Assembly: GCF_039954625.1 (NCBI RefSeq)
Contig: NZ_CP157199.1
Span: 2,356,001 to 2,420,000 of the forward strand
Direction: 5' to 3'
Origin: Pontimicrobium sp. SW4
Lineage (GTDB): Bacteria > Bacteroidota > Bacteroidia > Flavobacteriales > Flavobacteriaceae
Length of the DNA stretch: 64,000 nt
The position numbers were made by a program, and so were the translations under genes. Of the stretch, positions 23,760 to 58,074 are shown piece by piece (position 1 is the first letter of the stretch; each line of letters starts with the position of its first letter). The notes beneath the pieces were generated by a model, which was not told where the DNA came from, did not search any database, and was given only the letters and a program-made list of their open reading frames with translations.

Positions 23760-26700
23760 ATGAAAACAAAGTTTAGTGGAATTTTAACGCTATTGTTAGC
23801 GTTTATTGTGCAAGTATCCTTTGCGCAAGAAAAAACTATTTCGGGAACTGTTTCAGATGAATCTGGAATGCCTCTTCCTGGGGTAAACATTATTGTAAAA
23901 GGAACAACTAATGGAACGCAAACAGATTTTGATGGTAACTATACCATTAATGCAAGTGCTGGTGATGTTCTTACTTTCACCTATGTAGGTCTTAAAACTG
24001 TTGAGCAAACAGTAGGATCTTCTAACACTATAAATGTAACAATGCAAGAAGATGCTGCGTTGTTAGATGAAGTAGTTGTTACAGCTTTAGGGATTAAAAG
24101 AGAAAAGAAATCGCTTGGTTATGCGCAACAATCAGTTGGTGGTGAAGAACTAGTAAAAGCAAAAGAAACTGATATTGCTGATGCTTTGGCTGGTAAAGTA
24201 GCTGGTGTCCAAATAGTAGGTAATAACAGTTCTACATTTGGAAACTCAAGCATTCGTTTAAGAGGTCAAACTGATCTTTTATATGTAGTTGATGGAGTTA
24301 GAGTGTATGCTATAAGTGACATTAACCCAGAAAACGTTGCAGATATTTCAGTACTTAAATCTGGTGCTGCAACAGCGCTTTATGGTCCTGATGGAAGAAG
24401 TGGTGCTATTGTTATTACAACAAAAACAGCTGAATCTGGTGTAGCTCAATTTCAAATTGATCAAGCTTTCACTATTAACCAAGTAACTAATTTACCTGAA
24501 TATCAAAATGAATATGGTGGTGGATATAGCCAAACGTTTAACACGTTTACTTATAACCCTGCTACTGATCCTGCTGAATGGGCTGCTTTTGATGGACAAC
24601 CTTATCCAGATTTCTGGGCAGATGAAAGTTGGGGTCCTAGATTAGACGGTACTTTAGTACGTCACTGGGATAGTTGGGTTCCTGGAACTCCAGAGTTTGG
24701 TGAATTAAGACCTTGGTCTCCAAGTAAAAATGATATTAATACTTTTTATGAAGACGCTTATACAAACAATACAACATTATCTTTTTCTAAAGGAGGAGAA
24801 GATTACAATATTAGAACGTCATTAACTTATGTTGAAGCAAACGGTATTATTCCAAATTCAAGCAATAAATCAACTAGATTTGCGCTTAATGCAACATATA
24901 ATATCACAGAAAAATTTGAGTTTTTTGCTAACATAAATGTTGAAGATAGAGATATGCTTAATAACCCAGATCAAGGGTATGCTAACTTAGGATCTAACTT
25001 TAACCAATGGTGGCAAAGACAATTAGACTTTAAACGTTTAAAAAGATATGAGCGTAATGGTCAAGTAGTATCTTGGAATATTCGTGGCCCTAGAGATGCA
25101 CGTCCTTTATATTGGGATATGCCTTATTTCCACTCATATGAAAACGATAACAACTATAGAAAAAATACATATTTTGGAAAAGTTGGTGGTACATATACCT
25201 TCAACGACAATTTCAATATTACAGCAGAGATTAGAAAAACTTTTAACTCATACAATACTGATGATAGAGGAACAACTAAGAGTTTATTAGACCCTGCTTT
25301 CTTTAGTGAAAGTCATAGTAGAAATGAAAGAATAGATTATTTCGCCATGGCAACTTATAGTGATGTAGCCTTAAATGGAGATATCGACTATAACGTTAAT
25401 TTGGGTGTAGAAAAAATTCACAGAGATTTTAGAAGCTTAAATGCTAACACTGTTGGTGACTTAACAATTCCAGATTTTTATAATTTAGCTGGCTCTTTAG
25501 ATCCTGTAGCTGCAAGTGGTGGTAAAAGGCTTCAAAAGAATGATGGTATTTTTGCCAAAGGATCGGTAAGCTATAAAAAATTCTTATATTTAGATGGATC
25601 GTATAGACTTGACTGGTCTTCTACTGCTAATCCAGAGGATAACAGAGTTGAAACACTTGGAGCTTCGGCTAGTTTCTTAGCACACGAAGTATTACCTAAA
25701 AATGATGTTGTAACCTTTGCTAAATTAAGAGTAGGTTATTCTGAAGCACCTTATTTCCCTGGCCCATATCTAACTCAAAATGTTTATACAGTTGGCTCTC
25801 TGTATCAAGGAAATGGTAGACTTGGTATTAATAGTAGACAAGAGAACCCAGACCTTAAAGGTGGTGTTAGATCAGAGTTTGAAGTTGGTACTGAATTCCG
25901 TTTATTTAATGGAAAAATTGGTTTAGACTTATCTTACTGGGATAGGACAGATGATCAACTACCAATAAATATTCCTTTAGATGGTGCAACTGGTTATTCT
26001 AATACAAATATTAATAGTGGTAAGCAAACATCTTCTGGTTTTGAAGTTGCATTATTAGGTGATGTAGTTAGAAATGATAACTTTACTTGGGAACTTGGTG
26101 TAAACTTTGCAACACTTAATAGATATGTAGATGCTTTATATCCAGGAATTGACTCTAGAGATTTAAGTACTTATACATCTAACATGAGACTTCAAGAAAG
26201 AGTTGGTGAAGAATGGGGTACTTTAATTGGTAGAGGTTTTGCATACGGTGCTAATGGCGAAATTATGTATCGAGCTGCTAGTGGTGGTCGTTATTTCTAC
26301 AGTCGTCAAACAAACAAAAACTTAGGTAATGTATTGCCTGATTTTACTGGTGGTTTAACATCTAATATGACTTATAAAAACTGGGACTTAAGTTTAGGAT
26401 TTGACTTCCAAAAAGGCGGTAAATACTACTCTAGAACTGAAAGATATATGGATCATTCTGGTTTATCTGCTAAAACGGCAGGTCTTAACGATAAAGGTAA
26501 CCCAAAAAGAGACCCTGTAGCTTCAGGTGGTGGTGTACACATCGTTGGTGTATTAGAAACTGGTACAGATGCTAACGGACAACCAACATCAGATGGTACT
26601 GTTGTAGATGCTTATGTTGAAGCACAAGATTTATACAACCTAGGTAACTTAGGTAACATCTACGAAAACAACTTACACGATGCATCTTATATTAAATTAA

Positions 26701-26924
26701 GAAGTGTGAAGTTAAACTACAACTTCGAGAAAGATTTTGTAAGCAAGTTTAGTTTAACTGCTGCATCAATTGGCTTCTTTGCTAATAACGTTTGGTTAAT
26801 TGATTCTGAACTTAATTGGGTAGATCCTTCAGAGCTTGAAAGACGAGGTGGAATAAACTGGGCTGAAGCTGGTACACTTCCTCAAACAAGATCGATGGGA
26901 GTTAACTTAAGACTAACATTCTAA
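23760..26924 (+). CDS. SusC/RagA-family TonB-dependent outer-membrane transporter
   Basis: A 1054-residue transporter. In order: signal peptide 1-22 (ending FAQ), carboxypeptidase-regulatory-like domain about 25-105 (SGMPLPGVNIIVKGTTNGTQ), the TonB-box-type segment LLDEVVVTALGIKREKKSLGY, a plug with GKVAGVQIVG and LYGPDGRSGAIVITTKT (to about residue 225), then a long 22-strand-type barrel ending SMGVNLRLTF. SusC proteins import oligosaccharides or peptides with their SusD lid, using TonB energy. The paired lipoprotein gene follows after 13 bases. The substrate cannot be read from the sequence. Confidence 0.95.
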   Translation: MKTKFSGILTLLLAFIVQVSFAQEKTISGTVSDESGMPLPGVNIIVKGTTNGTQTDFDGNYTINASAGDVLTFTYVGLKTVEQTVGSSNTINVTMQEDAALLDEVVVTALGIKREKKSLGYAQQSVGGEELVKAKETDIADALAGKVAGVQIVGNNSSTFGNSSIRLRGQTDLLYVVDGVRVYAISDINPENVADISVLKSGAATALYGPDGRSGAIVITTKTAESGVAQFQIDQAFTINQVTNLPEYQNEYGGGYSQTFNTFTYNPATDPAEWAAFDGQPYPDFWADESWGPRLDGTLVRHWDSWVPGTPEFGELRPWSPSKNDINTFYEDAYTNNTTLSFSKGGEDYNIRTSLTYVEANGIIPNSSNKSTRFALNATYNITEKFEFFANINVEDRDMLNNPDQGYANLGSNFNQWWQRQLDFKRLKRYERNGQVVSWNIRGPRDARPLYWDMPYFHSYENDNNYRKNTYFGKVGGTYTFNDNFNITAEIRKTFNSYNTDDRGTTKSLLDPAFFSESHSRNERIDYFAMATYSDVALNGDIDYNVNLGVEKIHRDFRSLNANTVGDLTIPDFYNLAGSLDPVAASGGKRLQKNDGIFAKGSVSYKKFLYLDGSYRLDWSSTANPEDNRVETLGASASFLAHEVLPKNDVVTFAKLRVGYSEAPYFPGPYLTQNVYTVGSLYQGNGRLGINSRQENPDLKGGVRSEFEVGTEFRLFNGKIGLDLSYWDRTDDQLPINIPLDGATGYSNTNINSGKQTSSGFEVALLGDVVRNDNFTWELGVNFATLNRYVDALYPGIDSRDLSTYTSNMRLQERVGEEWGTLIGRGFAYGANGEIMYRAASGGRYFYSRQTNKNLGNVLPDFTGGLTSNMTYKNWDLSLGFDFQKGGKYYSRTERYMDHSGLSAKTAGLNDKGNPKRDPVASGGGVHIVGVLETGTDANGQPTSDGTVVDAYVEAQDLYNLGNLGNIYENNLHDASYIKLRSVKLNYNFEKDFVSKFSLTAASIGFFANNVWLIDSELNWVDPSELERRGGINWAEAGTLPQTRSMGVNLRLTF

Positions 26925-28617: not shown

Positions 28618-31600
28618 ATGAAAACAAAGTTTAGTGGAATTTTAACGCTATTACTGGCGTTTGTTGTGCAATTTACCTTTGCACAAGGAAAAACAATTTC
28701 GGGAACAATTTCAGATCAATCTGGAATGCCTTTACCTGGAGTTAACATTATTGTAAAAAACACGACTAACGGTACTCAAACTGATTTTGATGGTAATTAT
28801 ACTATTACTGCCAATGTTGGTGATGTATTAGTTTTTACCTATGTAGGATTAAAAACTGTTGAGCAAACTGTTGGAGCTGCAAATACGATTAATGTTACAA
28901 TGGAAGAAGATGCTGCCGTATTAGACGAAGTAGTAGTAACTGGTGTGGCAGGAGCTACATCTAGAAAAAAACTATCGGTTACTGTAGCAAAAGTTAGTAC
29001 TGAGCAAATTGAAAAAGTACCAGCTGGTTCTGCAGCTAGTGCGCTTCAAGGTAAAGTTGCTGGTGTCTCTGTAACAAACTTAGGTCGTCCTGGACAAGGA
29101 GCAACTCTTCTTCTAAGAGGTGCAGCCAATTTTTATGGTTCGCAAGCACCATTAGTATTATTAGATGGTGTATTTGTTGAAGGTGGTCTTGGAGATATAA
29201 ATGTTGATGATATTGCATCTTTTGAAATTGTAAAAGGAGCATCTGCTTCATCTTTATACGGGTCAAGAGCTGGAAATGGAGTTATATCTATTACTTCTAA
29301 AAGAGGTAAACTTGGTAAATCTGAGATTACACTTAGATCAGAAGTTGGATTCTCTAAAATCAATAACTACATTGAAACTAACCAATCTCATGGTTACGAG
29401 CTAGCCTCAGATTGGGAACAATTTAAAGGGCAATACACAAAATATGAAGGTGTAACCTATCCAGCTGGTTACCAAGGTGTATGGGCTGCTTCAGGTGTAA
29501 ACGCAGTTACTGGTGGTAGAATTGAATCTGCCGATGGTTATTCTGACAACCCTTATGGTGTATACAACAATTTTCAAGATGCATTCTTTAAAAATGGTAT
29601 TAACACAACTAATTATGCTTCTATTTCTAGTGGTAATGATAAGTCTCGTGTATTCTTTTCTTCTGAAAACACAGAAGCTGAAGGTGTTTTAGAAGAAACT
29701 GATGGATATACTAGAAATGGTTTACGTTTAAATGCAGATTATTATTTTAATGACTGGATTAAATTTACAACGAGTAACGCATTCATAAAATTAAATGATA
29801 ACTCTCCAGGTGGTGGAAATGACATTTATAGAACTATTGCAAGACTAGCACCAGATGCACAGCTATTTGTTGAGAACCCAGATGGGCAACCTTATTGGTA
29901 TAAGCCAGATCCATGGGAATCTGAAATTAGTAACCCATTATATAATTTATATGTAAGAGACGCAAAAGCTAAGCAACAACGTTTCTTAGGGTCTTATAAT
30001 TTAAACTTAAGATTAACTGATGCCGTTACTGCTGAATTGGAATATGCATTTGAAAGCAATAACTATCGTTTTACAAGGCATAATAAATATGAAACATATA
30101 CAACAACTGGTGACCCTATAGGATTTGGTTACAGTGAAGGTTCTTTGAATAAAAACAGTTCTTTTGAGTTATCTCAAAAAGCGCAAGCAACAATAAACTA
30201 TGCTAAAACTTTTGGTGACCTTGAAGTAAAAGGTAAATTAAGTTATTTATTAGAAGATAGAGCTTATGAACAAGTGTCTGCTTCTGGTCAAAATTATTTA
30301 TTTAGAGGTTTACCTACTTTAGATAACTTTGCTAATGCAGATATATCTGCTTCTTCAGACCAAAATGCTGAAAGAGCACAAAACATGTTTGTAATTGGTG
30401 GTTTAGTATATAAAGATCGCTATATTATTGATGCCTTATTTAGACGTGATGGTTCTTCTTTATTTGGAGCTAATGAAAGATGGAACAACTATTATAGAGT
30501 TTCTGGAGCCTATAGAGTTACTCAAGATATAGAAATTCCAGGTGTTCAAGAATTAAAGTTAAACTTTGCGAGAGGTACTTCAGGACAACGTCCAGGATTC
30601 TCATGGCAATATGAGCAAACGGCTCTTGGTGGAGGTTCTTTATCAACAAATAGAATCAAAGGTAATCCAGATTTAAAACCGTCATTAACAACAGAGAATG
30701 AATTTGGTTTAAACGCCTCTTTCTTAGATAGATTTACTTTAGAAGCTGCATACTCTAATCAAGTGTCAACAGATCAGTTTATGCTTGTTAGTTTATTTGC
30801 TCCTGCAAATGCTGGAAAAAATAGACAATGGCAAAATGTTGGTGATTTGGAATCAAATACTATTGAGGTGTCTTTAAACTCTCAAATTATTGATACTCCA
30901 AATGTGAAATGGGACTTAGGTGTAAACTTTACAACGGTTGATTCTAAAATTACTAAGTTAAACGCTCCTGAACAACAAGTAGGGCCTAGCGGTTTATTCT
31001 TATTAAGAGAGGGTATTGAATATGGTTCTATGTATGGTAGACGTTTTGTTACAGACTTAGCAACTATGGCTAATCAACTACCTTCAGGTATGTCTATTGG
31101 AGATTATAGTGTAAACAGTGATGGTGTCGTTGTTGAAACATCTCAAATTGGTACTACTGGTGAAGCTGCAATTATTGAAGTAGATGCTAACGGGACTCCT
31201 GTTTTTGAAAAAATTGGTAATCAAAATGCAGACTTTAACGTAGGTATTGTATCAAATTTCAGCTATAAAAAGTTAGATTTCTATATGCTTTGGGATTGGA
31301 AACAAGGCGGTGATATTTATAACGTAAACGGACAATGGACTACTATTAGTGAGAGAAACGCAATTGTTGATCAAGCTGGTAAGCCAGATTCTGAAAAGAA
31401 AACCAGAGTATATTACGGTTCTCTATACGATGTTAACCAAAATAACGCCTTTTGGGTTGAAGATGGTAGCTTTGTAAAGTTAAAAGAGGCTTCTGTTTCT
31501 TATACATTTGACTCTAAACAAATTCCTTTCTTAAGTTCACTTAAAGTGAGTTTAATTGGTAGAAACCTTTTAACGTTTTCTGACTATAAAGGTTGGGATC

Positions 31601-31707
31601 CTGAAATTGCTAATTATGATGGTGGTACACAACAGTACTACAGTGTTGATTATGGTGTTTACCCTAACCAATCATCATACTCAATGTCAGTTCAAATTAA
31701 ATTCTAA
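28618..31707 (+). CDS. SusC/RagA-family TonB-dependent outer-membrane transporter
   Basis: A 1029-residue transporter with the same domain order: signal peptide 1-22, carboxypeptidase-regulatory-like domain (SGMPLPGVNIIVKNTTNGTQ), EVVVTGVAGATSRKKLS, plug with LQGKVAGVSVTNLGRPG and LYGSRAGNGVISITSKRGK, then barrel ending SYSMSVQIKF. Its first 110 residues are nearly identical to those of the upstream SusC, whereas plug and barrel differ strongly, so it is expected to take another substrate. A strong hairpin lies between it and its susD partner. Confidence 0.95.
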   Translation: MKTKFSGILTLLLAFVVQFTFAQGKTISGTISDQSGMPLPGVNIIVKNTTNGTQTDFDGNYTITANVGDVLVFTYVGLKTVEQTVGAANTINVTMEEDAAVLDEVVVTGVAGATSRKKLSVTVAKVSTEQIEKVPAGSAASALQGKVAGVSVTNLGRPGQGATLLLRGAANFYGSQAPLVLLDGVFVEGGLGDINVDDIASFEIVKGASASSLYGSRAGNGVISITSKRGKLGKSEITLRSEVGFSKINNYIETNQSHGYELASDWEQFKGQYTKYEGVTYPAGYQGVWAASGVNAVTGGRIESADGYSDNPYGVYNNFQDAFFKNGINTTNYASISSGNDKSRVFFSSENTEAEGVLEETDGYTRNGLRLNADYYFNDWIKFTTSNAFIKLNDNSPGGGNDIYRTIARLAPDAQLFVENPDGQPYWYKPDPWESEISNPLYNLYVRDAKAKQQRFLGSYNLNLRLTDAVTAELEYAFESNNYRFTRHNKYETYTTTGDPIGFGYSEGSLNKNSSFELSQKAQATINYAKTFGDLEVKGKLSYLLEDRAYEQVSASGQNYLFRGLPTLDNFANADISASSDQNAERAQNMFVIGGLVYKDRYIIDALFRRDGSSLFGANERWNNYYRVSGAYRVTQDIEIPGVQELKLNFARGTSGQRPGFSWQYEQTALGGGSLSTNRIKGNPDLKPSLTTENEFGLNASFLDRFTLEAAYSNQVSTDQFMLVSLFAPANAGKNRQWQNVGDLESNTIEVSLNSQIIDTPNVKWDLGVNFTTVDSKITKLNAPEQQVGPSGLFLLREGIEYGSMYGRRFVTDLATMANQLPSGMSIGDYSVNSDGVVVETSQIGTTGEAAIIEVDANGTPVFEKIGNQNADFNVGIVSNFSYKKLDFYMLWDWKQGGDIYNVNGQWTTISERNAIVDQAGKPDSEKKTRVYYGSLYDVNQNNAFWVEDGSFVKLKEASVSYTFDSKQIPFLSSLKVSLIGRNLLTFSDYKGWDPEIANYDGGTQQYYSVDYGVYPNQSSYSMSVQIKF

Positions 31708-47475: not shown

Positions 47476-50400
47476 ATGAACAAAACAATTACCGTCATAA
47501 TGATTCTGCTATTCGCAAACCTAGGCTATTCACAAAATAATTATACTGATTTATGGAAATCTGTCGAAAAATTTGAAGTTGAAGGTTTACCAAAATCTGC
47601 TCTAGAGGTAGTCGAAACAATTAGCAAAAAAGCAGAAAATGATGATAACAATATTCAACGTATTAAAGCATTGCTATTTAAAAGTAAGTTTGCGTTAGTT
47701 CTCGAAGAAGATGCTCAATTAAAAATTATCGCTGATTTTAAAACACAAATTTCTAAAAGTGAATTTCCAACAAAAAATATTTTAGAAAACTTATTAGCAA
47801 ACTTACATTGGCAATATTTTCAACAAAATAGATGGCAATTTTATAATAGAACAAAAACTTCAGAAAAAGTAGATAAAGACGATTTTAGAACTTGGGATTT
47901 ACAAACCTTATTTGATGAGATTAGCGTGCATTATCAAAATTCATTAGAGCAACAATTATTGCTTCAGCTTGAAGGTTTAAAAAACTACGATGAGCTATTA
48001 ATCTTGCAAGAAGATTCCAAAACTTTTAGACCAACACTTTTCGATTTTCTAGCTCATAATGCTTTGGAATTTTATACCACTGACGAAAATAGCATCACCA
48101 AACCTACTTACAAGTTTGAAATTGATAATGCCCAGTTTTTAAGTGATTCGCAACGCTTTTCGCGATTGAACATCACCTCAAAAGACAGAAGCTCTTTACA
48201 GTTACAAGCCTTAAAATTGTATCAAGAGTTAACCAAATTTCATCTAAAAGATAAAGAACCTTATGCACTTGCTGATGTTGACATCAATCGTTTATTGTAT
48301 GTGAAGCAGCATGCTACTTTTAGTGATATTGATACTAAACTATTAGAAACCTTAAAAGCTGAAAGCAACCGTTTAAAATCACACGAAGTGTCTGCTTTAT
48401 ATGATTTTGAAATAGCTTCAATCTATTTTGAACAAGGCAATACCTATCAACCTACAACCAGCGAGACACATCGTTGGAAACTCAAAGAAGCAATTGAAAT
48501 ATGTGATGCTGTCATCAATAAATTCCCTAAAAGCAAAGGTGCTGAAAAGTGCCAAATTTTAAAGCAGCAAATCCTTCAGTCCTCGTTACAAATTACAGCT
48601 GAAAGTCATTTGCCAATCCACTCAAATTCGCGGTTATTAATTCGATACAAAAACCTTGAAAACTTAGCTTTTAAAGTCTATCAATTAAGTAGAAATCAAT
48701 ATGAAACGCTAAATACAACCTACAGAAAAGAAGAGCAACTCGCATTTATTAAAAAGCTAAAGGTCGATAAACAATGGCAAAGTAATTTGCCTAATGAAAA
48801 CGATTATCAGACACACACAACTGAAGTGGTTGTTCCTGCATTAAACAATGGCTATTTTGTAGTGTTTGCATCACCTGAAACCTCAAATGAACAAACCTTT
48901 GCTTTTGCAACACTTCAAGTCACTAATATGGCAATTGTAGATAAAAGTGACAGCAAAAACTACATTTATCAAGTCATTGATAGAAACAACGGACAACCTA
49001 TTGCTAATACAAAAGTGACGTTAAACTTTAGTAGAGGCAATAACAATGAGCAAACCGAACATAAGACCACAAACTCTAATGGCGAAATTCAACTCACCAA
49101 AGCTAAAGATCGTTGGAGACTTAACATGATTGTTCAAAATAAAAATGACATAGCTTATTTTGACAACTACAATCTATACAGATATTACAATGACGATAAA
49201 GAAGAAAGAGTAACCTACAACGCTTTTTTATTTACTGACCGAAGTATTTACAGACCTGGACAAACGGTTTATTTTAAAGGCATTGCCATGAAAGCTGAAA
49301 ATGGGAAATCTGAGGTTTTAGAAAAAGAAGCTGTCATTGCAACGCTTTTTGATGTCAATAATGAAATTATTTCTCAACACAATTTAAAGACCAATGATTT
49401 TGGTTCAATTTCTGGCGAATTTATCCTACCAAGTAATGGCTTAAACGGAGAATTTCGAATTGAAATATATTCAGTCAACAATAATAGATTTAGATCGAAT
49501 ACTTATATCTCAGTCGAAGAATACAAACGTCCTAAATTTGAAACTACTTTCAATCCAGTTACTGAAACTTATAAAATAAACGATTCTGTGACCGTAAAAG
49601 GAAAGGCGTTGGCTTACGCTGGAAGCAACATTACTGATGCCAAAGTGGTGTATCGTGTGCATAGAAAAGTGCAATATCCTCGTTGGTATTATTGGTATCG
49701 TCCTTGGTTTAATAGCGAACCAAAAGAAATCACTCATGGTGAAACTATCACAAATGAGAAAGGTGAATTTGAAATCACTTTTAAAGCGCAACCAGATGAA
49801 AGCGTTAATAAAGGCAGCTTACCTATTTTTAATTATGAAATCATTGCAGATGTCACTGATTTAAATGGTGAAACCAGAAGTGCAACCACTATCGTCAATG
49901 TTGGCTATCATGCCTTAACAGCCAATGTTTCGGTGGATGCTAAACTGGATAAAACTCAAAAGAATCACAAACTAAGGATTGACACCAAAAACCTAAATGG
50001 TGAATTTGTACCAGCAAAAGGAATTATAAAAATATACAAATTAATTGCGCCTAAACATGTATTGAGGCGGCGTCCTTGGAAAGCACCAGATTATCAAATG
50101 CTTTCTGAAAGTGAGTTTAAACAACTGTTTCCTCATGATGCTTATACCAATGAACATGATAGTAACCAGTGGAAAAAAGGAACACTCGTTTTAGAGAAGT
50201 CATTCGATACAGAAATATCAAAAGAACTTGCTTTAGGAAAGACTAAAAAATGGGAATCTGGACAATTTATTATTGTTTTGGAAACCAAAGACAAGTTTGG
50301 TCAAGAGGTAAAAGACCAAATAAAAACCACCTTGTATAGCGATAAAGACAAGCAGGTTTCTGACAACCAATTATTTGCTGTTACGACTGACAAATCGAAG

Positions 50401-53400
50401 TATAACATTGGAGATACAGCTGAAATCACATTTGCATCTGCAGCTAATCTCACAGTAACCGTTGACATTGAAAAAGACCACAAAATAATTAAAACTGAAG
50501 TTATCCATCTTGATAATAATAAAGAAACTATTTGTATTCCTGTCGATAAAAAAGACTTAGGAGGTTTTGTGGTGCATTACAGTTTTGCTGCCTTTAATAG
50601 TTTTGAAAGTGGCGTGGTAAACATTAGCGTACCATATCCAAAAACAGATTTGGACATTGAAACATTCACGTTTAGAGATAAGCTACAACCTGGAACTGAC
50701 GAAACTTGGAGTTTTAAAATAAAAGGACCAAAAGGCGATAAAGTCTCTGCCGAATTATTAGCAAGCATGTATGATGCATCTTTAGACCAGTTTAAACCAC
50801 ATCAATGGAATTTTAATCCAATTCAAAATCCAATATATCGAAGCGCTTCATATAGGAATGCTAGACAAGGGTTTGGAACGGTGAATTTTAGAGTACATCG
50901 AGATAGAACAGCATATTACCAGTTTAAAACACAGCAGTATGACTATTTTAATTGGTTTGGATTTAACTTCAACTTTAACAAGTGGCAATATGACAATTAT
51001 GTTAAATCTCTAAGATTAAAATCCGAATCAGAATATGATGATTCTATTAAAAAAGGGTATGTTTCAGGAACTATCTTCAATGAACAAGGTAATCCATTAC
51101 CTGGAGTGAATGTTATCGTGAAAGGTACTACAAGAGGCACTCAAACAGATTTTGATGGTAATTTTAGTATAGAAGCTACAAAAAATGAAATACTGGTTTT
51201 TAGTTATGTTGGATTTACTTCACGTGAAATCAATCTTGATAAAAACAATAGTCTAAGCATTTCAATGGCTGAGGATTCTGCACATTTAGATGAAGTTGTT
51301 GTTACTGGCTATGGAACTCAACAGAGGAGAGCAAAATTAAGTTCTTCTGTTTCTGTTAGTTATGAAAGTATTGCTGAAACTGAAGAAGATGTTGCTTCAA
51401 TATTATCTGGAAAAGTAGCAGGAGTTCAAATAACTGAAGAAGTAGAAGGTTCTGACTTCTCAGGTGTTACCATTCGCAAAAACCTTCAAGAAACTGCCTT
51501 TTTCTTTCCACATTTACAAACAGATGCAGAAGGCAATGTGACCTTTAGTTTCTCCACACCAGAAGCCTTAACCAAATGGAAATTACAATTAGTAGCACAT
51601 ACTAAAGCCTTGGAAAGTGCTGTCACATCATTAGAAACAGTCACTCAAAAAGAACTGATGGTTATTCCAAATACACCTCGTTTTTTACGTGAAGGTGACC
51701 AAATCACTATTAGCACCAAAATCGCAAACCTTTCAGATAAGCAACTTTCAGGTCAAGCGAAATTAGAGCTAACAGATGCAATCTCAGGAAAAGACATTTC
51801 GCATCTACTAATCCGAAAACAAGCTAGTTCTCCTCCTTTGGAGGAGTTAGAGGAGGCTTCCTTTACTGTAGACGCCAAAGGCAACACACAAGTATCTTGG
51901 CAATTGGATATTCCAGACACAGTACAAGCAGTACAATACAAAGTCATAGCAAAAGCTGGCGATTTTAGTGATGGCGAACAAAACGCTTTACCAGTCTTAA
52001 GTAACAGAATGTTAGTGACCGAAACCTTACCAATGTGGATAAGAAGCAACGAAACCAGAACATTCACTTTAGATAAGCTAAAAACAAACACCTCGACAAC
52101 GCTTAAACATCATAAACTTACATTAGAGATGACAAGCAATCCAGCTTGGTATGCTGTTCAAGCCTTACCATACTTAATGGAATATCCTTATGAGTGTAAT
52201 GAGCAAACCTTTTCAAGATATTATGCTAATGCCTTAGCAAGTCATATTGCGAATAGCAATCCTAGAATTCAAGAAGTCTTTAATCAATGGAGAAATGCTG
52301 ACGCACTTATTTCTAATCTTGAAAAAAATGAGGAACTTAAATCTATTCTCATTCAAGAAACACCTTGGTTACGAGATGCACAAAGCGAAACCGAACAGAA
52401 AAAACGCATTGCTCTGTTATTCGACATGAACAAAATGAGTAACGAGTTACAATCGGCTTTACGTAAACTGCAAAACAATCAAATGACTTCTGGTGCTTGG
52501 GCTTGGTTTAATGGTGGACGTGAAAATCGCTATATCACACAACACATTATTACTGGTTTTGGTCATTTAAAACAATTAAATGTCACCCTGAGCGCAGTCG
52601 AAGGGTCTCAACCAAACATGATTCAAAAAGCCATTCAATATTTAGATGCTGAATTCATAAAAGAATACAAAGACATTAGAAAGTATAACAAAGATGTCGA
52701 TTTAAGCAAAGACCATCTAAGTTATACACAACTGCATTATTTGTATATGCGAAGCTTCTTCTCTGACATTGAAAAATCAAAAGAAGTGGAAGATATCACA
52801 GCATATTATCATTCTCAAATCAAAAAATATTGGCTATCTCGCTCATTGTATGCAAAAGGATTGATGGCTTTAGTGGTTGATAGAATGGATGACAAAACGA
52901 CTTCAATTAAAATTTTAAAGTCATTAAAAGAGAATAGCATTACTTCGGATGAATTAGGAATGTATTGGAAAGAAAACACCAATTCGTGGTATTGGTATCA
53001 AGCACCAATTGAAACGCAAGCCTTATTAATTGAAGCTTTTGCAGAAATTGAGAACGATACTGAAACTATTGATAACCTTAAAATATGGTTACTTAAAAAC
53101 AAGCAAACCAACCAATGGAAAACGACCAAAGCAACTACTGAAGCTGTATATGCTTTATTGTTGCAAGGTAGTGATTGGTTAAGCGTTACTGATTTGGTTG
53201 ATGTAGTTTTAGGAGGGAAAGAAATTAATCCAACTAAACTAGAAAACGTAAAAGTTGAAGCTGGTACTGGTTATTATAAAACCTCTTGGAATGGTTCTGA
53301 AATTCAACCAGAAATGGCAGACGTAAAACTCACCAAAAAAGGCGATGGTATTGCTTGGGGAAGTTTGTATTGGCAGTATTTTGAAGATTTAGATAAGATT

Positions 53401-53835
53401 ACTTCAGCGGAAACACCTTTAAAATTGAATAAAAAATTATTCCTAAAAACCAATACAGACAAAGGCGAAGAAATTACTGAAATCACTTCTGACACGAAAT
53501 TGCAAGTTGGTGATTTGGTAAGAGTTCGAATCGAATTACGAAGTGATAGAACTATGGAATTTATGCATATGAAAGATATGCGAGCTGCTGGATTAGAACC
53601 CGTAAATGTGTTGTCACAATACAAATGGCAAGATGGGTTGGGTTATTATGAAAGCACCAAAGATACAAGCACTAATTTCTTTTTTGACTTTTTACCAAAA
53701 GGCGTGTATGTTTTTGAATATGATTTACGTGTGAACAATGCTGGAAATATGAGTAACGGTATTACAACCATACAAAGCATGTATGCTCCAGAATTTAGTA
53801 GTCATAGTGAAGGTGTTAGGATAAATATAGAATAA
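47476..53835 (+). CDS. Alpha-2-macroglobulin with an embedded SusC-type N-terminal module
   Basis: A 2119-residue periplasmic or surface protein with signal peptide 1-19. In order: helical N-terminal region; macroglobulin domains with the MG2 hallmark FTDRSIYRPGQTVYFKGIAM at about 586; the bait-region position, occupied at about 1195-1275 by a carboxypeptidase-regulatory-like domain (PLPGVNVIVKGTTRGTQTDF) and at 1276-1325 by a truncated TonB-plug segment (LDEVVVTGYGTQQRR, SGKVAGVQIT); the A2M domain (TIRKNLQETAFFFPHLQTDA); the thioester CNEQ at 1574-1577; and thioester-domain helices. The family traps proteases covalently. No PBP1c gene follows, unlike in classical yfhM-pbpC operons. A dispersed repeat is carried in frame at 52581-52606. 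Confidence 0.92.
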   Translation: MNKTITVIMILLFANLGYSQNNYTDLWKSVEKFEVEGLPKSALEVVETISKKAENDDNNIQRIKALLFKSKFALVLEEDAQLKIIADFKTQISKSEFPTKNILENLLANLHWQYFQQNRWQFYNRTKTSEKVDKDDFRTWDLQTLFDEISVHYQNSLEQQLLLQLEGLKNYDELLILQEDSKTFRPTLFDFLAHNALEFYTTDENSITKPTYKFEIDNAQFLSDSQRFSRLNITSKDRSSLQLQALKLYQELTKFHLKDKEPYALADVDINRLLYVKQHATFSDIDTKLLETLKAESNRLKSHEVSALYDFEIASIYFEQGNTYQPTTSETHRWKLKEAIEICDAVINKFPKSKGAEKCQILKQQILQSSLQITAESHLPIHSNSRLLIRYKNLENLAFKVYQLSRNQYETLNTTYRKEEQLAFIKKLKVDKQWQSNLPNENDYQTHTTEVVVPALNNGYFVVFASPETSNEQTFAFATLQVTNMAIVDKSDSKNYIYQVIDRNNGQPIANTKVTLNFSRGNNNEQTEHKTTNSNGEIQLTKAKDRWRLNMIVQNKNDIAYFDNYNLYRYYNDDKEERVTYNAFLFTDRSIYRPGQTVYFKGIAMKAENGKSEVLEKEAVIATLFDVNNEIISQHNLKTNDFGSISGEFILPSNGLNGEFRIEIYSVNNNRFRSNTYISVEEYKRPKFETTFNPVTETYKINDSVTVKGKALAYAGSNITDAKVVYRVHRKVQYPRWYYWYRPWFNSEPKEITHGETITNEKGEFEITFKAQPDESVNKGSLPIFNYEIIADVTDLNGETRSATTIVNVGYHALTANVSVDAKLDKTQKNHKLRIDTKNLNGEFVPAKGIIKIYKLIAPKHVLRRRPWKAPDYQMLSESEFKQLFPHDAYTNEHDSNQWKKGTLVLEKSFDTEISKELALGKTKKWESGQFIIVLETKDKFGQEVKDQIKTTLYSDKDKQVSDNQLFAVTTDKSKYNIGDTAEITFASAANLTVTVDIEKDHKIIKTEVIHLDNNKETICIPVDKKDLGGFVVHYSFAAFNSFESGVVNISVPYPKTDLDIETFTFRDKLQPGTDETWSFKIKGPKGDKVSAELLASMYDASLDQFKPHQWNFNPIQNPIYRSASYRNARQGFGTVNFRVHRDRTAYYQFKTQQYDYFNWFGFNFNFNKWQYDNYVKSLRLKSESEYDDSIKKGYVSGTIFNEQGNPLPGVNVIVKGTTRGTQTDFDGNFSIEATKNEILVFSYVGFTSREINLDKNNSLSISMAEDSAHLDEVVVTGYGTQQRRAKLSSSVSVSYESIAETEEDVASILSGKVAGVQITEEVEGSDFSGVTIRKNLQETAFFFPHLQTDAEGNVTFSFSTPEALTKWKLQLVAHTKALESAVTSLETVTQKELMVIPNTPRFLREGDQITISTKIANLSDKQLSGQAKLELTDAISGKDISHLLIRKQASSPPLEELEEASFTVDAKGNTQVSWQLDIPDTVQAVQYKVIAKAGDFSDGEQNALPVLSNRMLVTETLPMWIRSNETRTFTLDKLKTNTSTTLKHHKLTLEMTSNPAWYAVQALPYLMEYPYECNEQTFSRYYANALASHIANSNPRIQEVFNQWRNADALISNLEKNEELKSILIQETPWLRDAQSETEQKKRIALLFDMNKMSNELQSALRKLQNNQMTSGAWAWFNGGRENRYITQHIITGFGHLKQLNVTLSAVEGSQPNMIQKAIQYLDAEFIKEYKDIRKYNKDVDLSKDHLSYTQLHYLYMRSFFSDIEKSKEVEDITAYYHSQIKKYWLSRSLYAKGLMALVVDRMDDKTTSIKILKSLKENSITSDELGMYWKENTNSWYWYQAPIETQALLIEAFAEIENDTETIDNLKIWLLKNKQTNQWKTTKATTEAVYALLLQGSDWLSVTDLVDVVLGGKEINPTKLENVKVEAGTGYYKTSWNGSEIQPEMADVKLTKKGDGIAWGSLYWQYFEDLDKITSAETPLKLNKKLFLKTNTDKGEEITEITSDTKLQVGDLVRVRIELRSDRTMEFMHMKDMRAAGLEPVNVLSQYKWQDGLGYYESTKDTSTNFFFDFLPKGVYVFEYDLRVNNAGNMSNGITTIQSMYAPEFSSHSEGVRINIE
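51829..51858 (+). repeat. Possible in-frame repeat insertion rich in TCCTCC/GGAGG
   Basis: CTCCTCC-TTT-GGAGGAG is an inverted repeat followed by TTAGAGGAGG. It encodes the acidic segment SSPPLEELEEA inside a macroglobulin-type strand region, unlike the surrounding codons in base composition. Confidence 0.45.
52581..52606 (+). repeat. Dispersed repeat copy inside the alpha-2-macroglobulin gene
   Basis: TGTCACCCTGAGCGCAGTCG followed by AAGGGT repeats the start of the intergenic element at 44681 with one base changed in the first 22. It is in frame and is translated as VTLSAVEGS. Confidence 0.75.
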
Positions 53836-56935: not shown

Positions 56936-58045
56936 TTATAAACTATCAATCACTTTATTTAAACGCAATGTAATATCTTCTATACTACCAACACCATCTA
57001 CACCAAAATATTTGCTTTGCGCAGAATAATAGTTTTTTAAAATTGCTGTTTTATTATAATACTCGGTAATTCTACTTCTAATAATACCTTCATCTGCGTC
57101 ATCGGCTCTACCACTAGTTTTTCCTCTTTCTAGTAAGCGCCCAACAAGGACTTCATCATCCACTTCTAAAGCAATCATTGCATTAATGCTAGAGTCTTTG
57201 TCTTCCATTAATTTATCCAATGCTTTTGCTTGTGCTTCAGTACGTGGGAAACCATCAAAAATAAAACCGTTTGCATCTGAGTTTTTTTCCACCTCAGCAT
57301 TTAACATTTTAATAGTTACTTCATCAGGAACCAACCCTCCTTTATCCATATAAGATTTTGCAAGTGTACCTAAAGCTGTTTCGTTTTTTATATTATATCT
57401 AAATACATCTCCTGTAGAAATGTGAACTAGATTATATTTTTCTTTTAAAAATTCAGCTTGCGTTCCTTTTCCTGCTCCTGGAGGTCCGAATAGCACTAAG
57501 TTTGTCATGTGTTGTGTTTCTTTTATTTGGTAAACCTCAGGTATATCTCTTCCTAAACCATCATAATCTAATCCGTATCCTACAATAAATTTGTTAGGAA
57601 TTTCTATACCTACATAATGTAATTTATAGTCTTTTTTGTATGCTTGCGGCTTGTAAAATAACGTTGCAATTATCAGTGATTTTACATTTTCATTTTCAAA
57701 AATTCTATGAACTTCTTCAAGTGTATTTCCTGTATCAATAATATCTTCAAGAATCACCACAGTTCTTCCTGTTAAATCTTGTGTCAATCCAATAAGGCGT
57801 TGAATATCCTCAGTCGACTTTACACCTTCATAAGATGCTAGCTTAATAAATGTCACCTCGCAAGGCTTAGGGTATTTTTTAACAAAATCACTCACAAACA
57901 TAAATGAGCCATTCAAAATTCCAACAAATACAGGAACTTCATCACCTAAATCCACAAGAACGTTATCAACCATTTTTGTAATGGCATCATCAATTTCTTG
58001 TTCAGAAATAAACGGTTTAAAGTATTTATCGTGAAGCTTTATCAC
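56936..58045 (-). CDS. Fused hypoxanthine phosphoribosyltransferase-adenylate kinase
   Basis: A single reading frame of 369 residues carries two enzymes. Residues 1-175 are a purine salvage phosphoribosyltransferase (PVFVGILNGSFMFVSDFVKK, PRPP motif VVILEDIIDTGNTLEEV). Residues 180-369 are adenylate kinase with the P-loop LFGPPGAGKGTQ, FIFDGFPRTEAQAKAL and a short zinc-free LID. The junction is only a few residues (QIKETQH). The start is placed at GTG 58043-58045, which matches the usual N terminus (M/V)IKLHDKYFKPFI; a TTG at 58069 lies inside the -7 promoter box and is unlikely. Divergent from purK-purE. Confidence 0.92.
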   Translation of the reverse strand: MIKLHDKYFKPFISEQEIDDAITKMVDNVLVDLGDEVPVFVGILNGSFMFVSDFVKKYPKPCEVTFIKLASYEGVKSTEDIQRLIGLTQDLTGRTVVILEDIIDTGNTLEEVHRIFENENVKSLIIATLFYKPQAYKKDYKLHYVGIEIPNKFIVGYGLDYDGLGRDIPEVYQIKETQHMTNLVLFGPPGAGKGTQAEFLKEKYNLVHISTGDVFRYNIKNETALGTLAKSYMDKGGLVPDEVTIKMLNAEVEKNSDANGFIFDGFPRTEAQAKALDKLMEDKDSSINAMIALEVDDEVLVGRLLERGKTSGRADDADEGIIRSRITEYYNKTAILKNYYSAQSKYFGVDGVGSIEDITLRLNKVIDSL

Positions 58046-58066
58046 CTTATTAAATTTTGAAAGAGG

Positions 58067-58074
58067 CAAAGATA
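58067..58074 (-). promoter_or_regulatory. -7 promoter element of hpt-adk
   Basis: Read on the minus strand it is TATCTTTG, a perfect TANNTTTG, 21 bases upstream of the GTG start. It overlaps an alternative TTG start codon and so argues against that start. Confidence 0.6.

Follow-up and report, generated by a model that had tools for sequence, protein, structure and literature searches.

A SusC-type N-terminal module at the bait position of alpha-2-macroglobulins of Bacteroidota

The known proteins closest to the one considered here are the bacterial alpha-2-macroglobulins (A2Ms) ECAM/YfhM of E. coli and the Salmonella A2M, which share with it the MG2, A2M_BRD, A2M and bMG10 domains, a CXEQ motif and a bait lying between the BRD and A2M domains. 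The published account of ECAM describes a trap fired by a cut in its disordered bait and a thioester formed at CXEQ (PMC4498604). The second point of comparison is provided by the SusC/RagA transporters, such as Bt1763 and RagA, with their N-terminal extension (NTE, PF13715), Ton box and plug. In Bt1763 the Ton box is reported to be needed for function, namely growth on levan, and once the Ig-like NTE was removed, growth on this substrate could not be detected within 24 h (PMC7782687). A carboxypeptidase-like domain of this kind has been implicated in the interaction between transporter and TonB by work cited in PMC12204202; that paper also proposes force transduction for the T9SS-associated PorE, which, going by its description, likewise carries an Ig-like carboxypeptidase domain on a non-transporter. 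Among titles and the opening parts of abstracts, a coverage from which subscription journals largely fall out, we found no account of an A2M that contains part of a SusC, a Ton box or a plug, and PMC12578637 yielded nothing on A2M; the architecture may be listed in automatic domain databases.

The A2M of the window and its SusC-type insert

The window, i.e. the entire stretch of 64,000 nucleotides analyzed here, codes for the only A2M match of its genome (E-value 1e-5), with the following features:

47476..53835, plus strand: A2M gene, 2119 residues, one uninterrupted open reading frame with Pfam domains
Start of the A2M protein: signal peptide MNKTITVIMILLFANLGYSQ, as read by eye
50380..50727, plus strand: A2M_BRD (PF07703, Pfam), residues 969-1084, the macroglobulin part preceding the bait
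50755..50793, plus strand: conserved LLASMYDASLDQF, residues 1094-1106, the last conserved A2M strand ahead of the variable bait segment
50794..51054, plus strand: linker, residues 1107-1193, pLDDT mostly low, a single short helix of low confidence (AF2)
51061..51303, plus strand: SusC-type NTE (PF13715), residues 1196-1276 (Pfam, NCBIfam, AF2)
51289..51309, plus strand: Ton box DEVVVTG, residues 1272-1278
51316..51465, plus strand: post-Ton stretch including the plug motif, residues 1281-1330, predicted disordered, fastest evolving and the proposed actual bait
51406..51432, plus strand: plug motif SGKVAGVQI, residues 1311-1319
51466..51495, plus strand: restart of A2M sequence, VTIRKNLQET, residues 1331-1340, aligned by profile with human A2M VRKYFPETWIW
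52195..52206, plus strand: thioester motif CNEQ, residues 1574-1577

In the order found by Pfam, MG2 (residues 583-673, 7.6e-18) and A2M_BRD are followed by the SusC-type insert, the A2M domain (PF00207, residues 1340-1427, 5.5e-18), the CNEQ motif and bMG10 (residues 1983-2106, 5.3e-32). A CXEQ pattern is present in 151 of the 173 A2Ms of sufficient length. Unlike the type I bacterial A2Ms, the window protein combines a 239-residue bait segment, counted from the LLASM anchor to the restart of A2M sequence, that bears a SusC NTE and Ton box, with the absence of a lipobox as judged by a simple pattern; the same kind of pattern identified lipoprotein-like N-termini in 3 of 121 A2Ms, all three devoid of any SusC element. 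Four genes neighboring the A2M gene code for TPR, Mur ligase, DinB/MST-like and DUF4136 proteins. A search for a PBP1C-like neighbor (pbpC) by one transglycosylase motif, covering the window plus 38 loci of which some are short, gave no match. Elsewhere in the window, an open frame on the minus strand (56936-58069) resembles by eye a hypoxanthine phosphoribosyltransferase with an adenylate kinase after it, and a methionine is present where the two meet.

A preliminary description made from the DNA alone had placed a SusC start inside this A2M at the bait position, and the profile searches bear this out: between A2M_BRD and A2M, residues 1196-1276 match PF13715 (CarbopepD_reg_2; 7.2e-22) and residues 1196-1322 match the SusC family TIGR04056 (2.4e-41). 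The latter match spans only profile positions 3-130 of 981, and its 142 bits are far below the full-length cut-off of 368. It had likewise been noted that the plug ends before its second half and A2M sequence resumes; indeed, with the match stopping at profile position 130 and A2M restarting at residue 1331, the insert has no complete plug. PF07715 (plug) is not reported in the protein even at E 0.1, because the insert ends after the first plug segment, and the 22-stranded barrel is also absent, there being no further SusC match before the A2M domain. Thus, the insert resembles the SusC/RagA proteins in its NTE, first plug segment and Ton box, the seven letters of which are identical to those of Bt1763 (PMC7782687), and differs from them in being internal and lacking the second plug half and barrel. 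When the whole protein is searched with phmmer against PDB sequences, only four distinct sequences are recovered, all of them SusC or TonB-dependent receptors that match the insert (8aa4 being the best, at 6.5e-18 over residues 1196-1332), and the 15 other matches of the protein in its own genome all fall within residues 1160-1336.

Two full SusC transporters of the same window serve for comparison only:

23760..26924, plus strand: SusC 1
28618..31707, plus strand: SusC 2

The insert shares 50% (over 126 residues) and 52% (over 127 residues) amino acid identity with them, and at the DNA level about 74% over 101 and 110 nucleotides at the start of the NTE, a part corresponding to about residues 27-62 of the SusCs; the matching pieces further on are shorter. 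Hence, the great closeness earlier claimed for SusC residues 35-60 applies there, while the modules taken whole are clearly diverged. A recent copy of a window SusC was rejected: in a comparison with 174 other A2M baits and 32 SusCs, the nearest sequences are the inserts in A2Ms from other genera (63%, 58% and 57%). An assembly or annotation artefact was also rejected, as the frame is open and the same architecture occurs in many separate assemblies.

The insert is bracketed by the A2M_BRD and A2M domains. In a profile of 31 A2Ms, the window protein included, the sequence from 'vRknLqEtAFF' onward aligns to 'VRKYFPETWIW' of human A2M (7voo, 1.1e-07; 6tav, 1.6e-07), which we take to closely follow the bait region there, and further on to ECAM (5a42, 9.9e-06). 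An AF2 model of residues 869-1477, built from 37 sequences (mean pLDDT 67.8, pTM 0.43), has macroglobulin strands up to about residue 1100 and again from 1355, the placement of domains relative to each other being unreliable at this pTM. Within the model, the NTE is predicted to be a folded unit (block means of pLDDT 76-88 over 1199-1268), whereas the Ton box and post-Ton stretch are predicted to be disordered (24-33 over about 1268-1340; 24-32 for the post-Ton stretch alone). Foldseek searches with the model recover ECAM (5a42, 4.3e-11), Salmonella A2M (4u48, 4.2e-9) and complement C3/C5. Together, sequence and model place the insert, as far as position goes, at the bait location between the BRD and A2M domains.

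The reading we favor, tentatively and at somewhat less than even probability, is that a captured SusC start became a bait segment in which we infer separate roles for the NTE and Ton box, as a tag for docking to TonB, and for the post-Ton stretch, as the real bait. The folded NTE with its Ton box would have been kept as a periplasmic tag for TonB to grip, and such a grip would hold the trap, itself devoid of a lipid anchor, at the TonB machinery close to the transporters. Proteases would cut the disordered part that separates the Ton box from the A2M domain and, by homology with ECAM, a cut there would fire the thioester trap.

Recurrence of SusC-type elements in A2M baits

A2M matches were found in 87 of 149 Flavobacteriaceae genomes and 66 of 296 genomes of the phylum, both being samples of larger groups. 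The family was recognized as Flavobacteriaceae because one of its A2Ms (L018) has the same sequence as L205 of Flaviramulus multivorans throughout the bait and for 300 residues after it. Of 196 loci, including 38 from a scan of named genomes, 175 remained after removal of 13 duplicates and 8 without anchors; their bait segments, delimited as above, range from 120 to 324 residues. As SusC reference we used the 30 best-scoring TIGR04056 loci and the two window SusCs, a choice that restricts the reference to typical SusCs. Of these 32, 26 went into the GKVAGV matrix and 31 into the plug-end matrix, and the thresholds were fixed at 11 bits or more for the Ton box, at least 8 for GKVAGV and at least 25 for the plug end.

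At least one SusC element is present in 110 of the 175 baits (95 when the weak GKVAGV motif is disregarded), with the remaining 65 having none. The module is therefore recurrent at the bait position, though not universal, and the idea of a lone recombination artefact is contradicted by its presence in homologs. The individual elements are the NTE in 45 baits, the Ton box in 76, the plug end in 29 and GKVAGV in 62, while the rest of the same proteins, six times longer on average (1072 against 181 residues), gives 0 Ton box, 4 GKVAGV and 0 plug-end matches. Profile HMMs of the 32 SusCs agree with this: at iE<1e-3, 55 baits match the NTE and 62 the plug versus 0 and 0 of the 175 rests, and at E<1 the figures are 95 versus 4 and 103 versus 3. 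For 109 of the 175 proteins the best Ton match is located in the bait (25.1 expected by length), as it is for 65 of the 124 with baits shorter than 190 residues (14.9 expected), these counts coming from related sequences and so not being independent trials. Chance likeness of the baits to SusC is excluded.

By group, the proportion of A2Ms with any element is 91/123 in the Flavobacteriaceae set, 5/6, 3/3, 3/8, 1/4, 1/2, 0/1 and 0/2 in the groups f2, f3, f4, f5, f9, f10 and f11, 3/3 in Fulvivirga, 0/4 in other MAGs and 3/19 in the other classes of the phylum. NTE matches in the rows bearing one are mostly below 1e-25 and reach 2e-37; three rows from another class (L123-L125), counted in both the 45 and the 110, possibly represent a different carboxypeptidase-like domain. 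In the family f2, CxEQ is missing by pattern in all six A2Ms (L152-L155, L157 and L174), five of which keep a Ton box. In one genome (G030:C1:487700-509900), three A2M genes with differing bait segments (L103, L100 and L095) stand in a row.

The elements occur in several combinations. An NTE and plug end are combined in 21 baits, 16 of these with a Ton box above threshold; 24, among them the window copy, have an NTE without plug end, and 12 an NTE without Ton box. Thus, the truncated plug noted at the outset describes the window copy and not the general state, and, since 21 A2Ms keep the NTE and plug end, we infer that the window copy has been truncated and represents one of a series of states. 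That the Ton box is most often kept and the plug end often lost leads us to favor docking to TonB over docking to a SusC barrel. In the latter alternative, the NTE and plug would lodge the trap inside a SusC barrel or beneath it, where it would protect the pore rather than engage TonB. The 29 retained plug ends, 21 with an NTE, are in its favor, as is the AF2 model of the whole module of Algibacter onchidii (L222; mean pLDDT 63.4, pTM 0.33), where both NTE (72-91) and plug (66-86) are predicted to be folded on either side of a disordered Ton region. We nevertheless regard it as very improbable: the second plug half is missing from the window copy, of the 43 A2Ms that have a Ton box and lack an NTE, 42 lack the plug end as well, and the SusC barrel already contains its own plug.

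A Ton box above threshold is missing from 99 of the 175 baits; even among the ten loci titled Gelidibacter it is missing in L215 and L217 and just below threshold in L207. Because of these 99, and the 65 with no element at all, docking through the Ton box cannot, on this sequence record, be essential to A2M function.

Among 20 baits with both Ton box and GKVAGV and neither NTE nor plug end, 19 have the two in the reverse of the SusC order (e.g. L033, L046 and L228), in more than one family; the reversal may have arisen by tandem duplication with loss or by separate capture. Such an order is more in keeping with peptide mimicry than with retention of a fold, and speaks for the alternative that the insert is a decoy mimicking the periplasmic face of SusC, whereby proteases that attack plugs or Ton boxes would cut the trap without any need for TonB binding. 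Consistent with this, 54 (Ton) and 39 (GKVAGV) of the 124 baits below 190 residues score better than all of their 100 shuffles. We consider this alternative unlikely on account of the patterns of constraint and the non-trap proteins described below.

Constraint and origin of the module

Pooled over seven pairs, omega is 0.12 for the body, 0.28 for the linker, 0.20 for the NTE, 0.29 for the Ton box and 0.58 for the post-Ton stretch, rough values given that five of the pairs share the window copy and that dS is near saturation and often above 1. The corresponding amino acid identities are 0.73 for the body, 0.67 for the NTE, 0.76 for the Ton box and 0.50 for the post-Ton stretch. In the five pairs with the window copy, omega is 0.11-0.24 for the NTE, 0.26-0.56 for the Ton box (12 codons) and 0.78-1.68 for the post-Ton stretch. 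For eight short baits of the Gelidibacter type, dN is 0.309 in the Ton box, 0.314 in GKVAGV, 0.513 in the rest of the bait and 0.115 in the body. Hence, the NTE and Ton box change more slowly than the post-Ton stretch, but the Ton box does not stand out in its constraint: its omega exceeds that of the NTE in the window pairs, and GKVAGV is as slow by dN in the Gelidibacter type. A bait role is accordingly likely, if putative, for the disordered and fast-evolving post-Ton stretch and less so for the folded NTE. For a decoy, a folded and constrained NTE would be superfluous, and conservation is lowest in the very stretch where a cut is most likely.

The same values bear on the possibility that the module is a tolerated passenger, with the bait accepting any foreign flexible sequence and the pieces decaying by drift; SusC would then be a common donor because SusC genes form a large family. 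The patchy distribution, with 65 A2Ms without any element and losses at the level of the genus, speaks for it, as does omega, which in the 8 of 10 pairs with both values computable is 0.19-0.48 in the bait against 0.07-0.16 in the body and is highest of all in the post-Ton stretch of the window pairs. Against this, the pooled omega of the NTE is low, its profile matches remain strong, the Ton box outlasts the larger NTE and plug end (76, 45 and 29 of 175), and the NTEs do not call for several donors (see below); we therefore deem a passenger unlikely, to the same degree as a decoy.

In a free tree of the 21 full modules and 32 SusCs, a branch (90/83, not starred) sets 19 modules apart, and those of L097/L104 fall among the SusCs; holding all 21 as one clade gives the likelier tree and is not rejected (AU p 0.857). 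Similarly, in an NTE-only tree of 42 A2Ms (i.e. the 45 without L123-L125), 32 SusCs and 8 VWA proteins, a single A2M clade is not rejected (AU p 0.781) and is likelier than the free tree, in which the A2M label takes 6 changes, all on 92 poorly resolved columns; the 42 NTEs thus need no multiple donors. On the tree of A2M bodies, parsimony gives 27 changes for the NTE, 17 for the plug end, 39 for the Ton box and 38 for GKVAGV, below the 40, 27, 57 and 51 obtained with shuffled labels, a count that cannot separate gain from loss.

What is plain from these data is recurrence and position; for the history, one old capture followed by many losses would be sufficient. Under such a scenario, with a presumed single origin and a presumed direction from full to truncated, an ancestor of the Bacteroidia A2Ms would have gained a SusC-type N-terminus (NTE, Ton box and plug) at the bait position, which would have since been trimmed lineage by lineage, leaving the window copy without the second plug half. 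Some rows suggest possible repeated re-supply from SusCs, namely L097/L104 and a patch between L130 and L137, where the 60-nucleotide segment directly after the Ton box is 52% identical and the other segments scanned 75-98%; the patch may reflect either conversion or fast change. As 62 of 88 rows could not be placed in either of two post-Ton classes (LTGAV type or KREKK type), the L130/L137 patch is the only part of that comparison used here.

Comparable modules on other exported proteins

The same kind of transporter module is found on another non-transporter, the YfbK-type VWA proteins (e.g. L263, L272, L277 and L289), where, unlike in the A2Ms, it is N-terminal and the protein has no bait. 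One is from the genome of the window:

G000:C1 about 1571475-1573460, minus strand: L263, 692-residue open frame

This protein starts with an NTE, followed by the Ton box LEEVIVTAYG and a plug; its compact GKVAGVQIRG junction is as in some short A2M baits. In a set of 41 YfbK-type proteins from across the phylum, an NTE-type domain is present in 28, a SusC-type Ton box in 9 (7 of these 9 without plug end) and a plug end in 3, and the best Ton match falls in the N-terminal part in only 19 of the 41 versus 12.0 expected. Some of the remaining proteins have, by eye and unscored, Ton boxes of other transporter types. The eight VWA NTEs examined are scattered (8 changes) in the poorly resolved NTE-only tree. 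Two further proteins from the same genome are M56 peptidases: L269 (G000:C1:2243152), BlaR1-like, with a C-terminus that resembles by eye the second half of a plug (PLLVIDGK...KKGKDGVVEIT), and L270 (G000:C1:148295), followed by two repeats that look by eye like the TonB C-terminal domain.

The wider habit represented by the VWA proteins supports the NTE and Ton box as a tag for TonB and counts against a decoy, as these proteins are not traps. A decoy finds some support in a genome (G165) in which the A2M L140, the VWA protein L285 and the plug-bearing 1045-residue frame L295 share an unusual EVTVYG..YVGA..TVTAKEIAKRPV segment. A Ton-box dialect shared with the host's own transporters was looked for in two genomes, on 15 of 23 plug matches in G165 and 15 of 18 in G273, and the agreeing cases are too few to make a rule: in G165, 2 of 15 loci are close (5 and 6 substitutions of 31), one being the VWA gene itself, and in G273, 5 of 15 pass the limit with 18-22 substitutions of 35, a weak likeness.

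Docking to TonB, with the post-Ton stretch as bait, has to accommodate the loss of Ton boxes within one genus, the frequent changes of NTE and Ton box on the body tree, the rows suggestive of re-supply, the lack of a special constraint on the Ton box and the low count of N-terminal Ton matches among the YfbK-type proteins. Going beyond it, we might speculate, at a rather low probability, that the Bacteroidota graft the NTE and Ton box onto soluble exported proteins, at the bait of A2Ms and the N-terminus of VWA proteins, making them non-transporter clients of TonB; the proton-motive force might then reach the trap through its bait, with TonB occupancy or pull arming, placing or resetting it.

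A bait made from the TonB-binding start of a transporter gives a direct, testable hint as to the threat from which bacterial A2Ms protect the cell and the place where they do so. Bait evolution, too, has left a natural record here: an old capture would have been shortened in numerous lineages, and of its parts a single short peptide is the one most frequently retained. Parts of the module persist in the baits of many related bacteria, and the trap may thus be physically wired to the TonB energy system of the cell, suggesting that TonB may act on proteins beyond the outer-membrane transporters.
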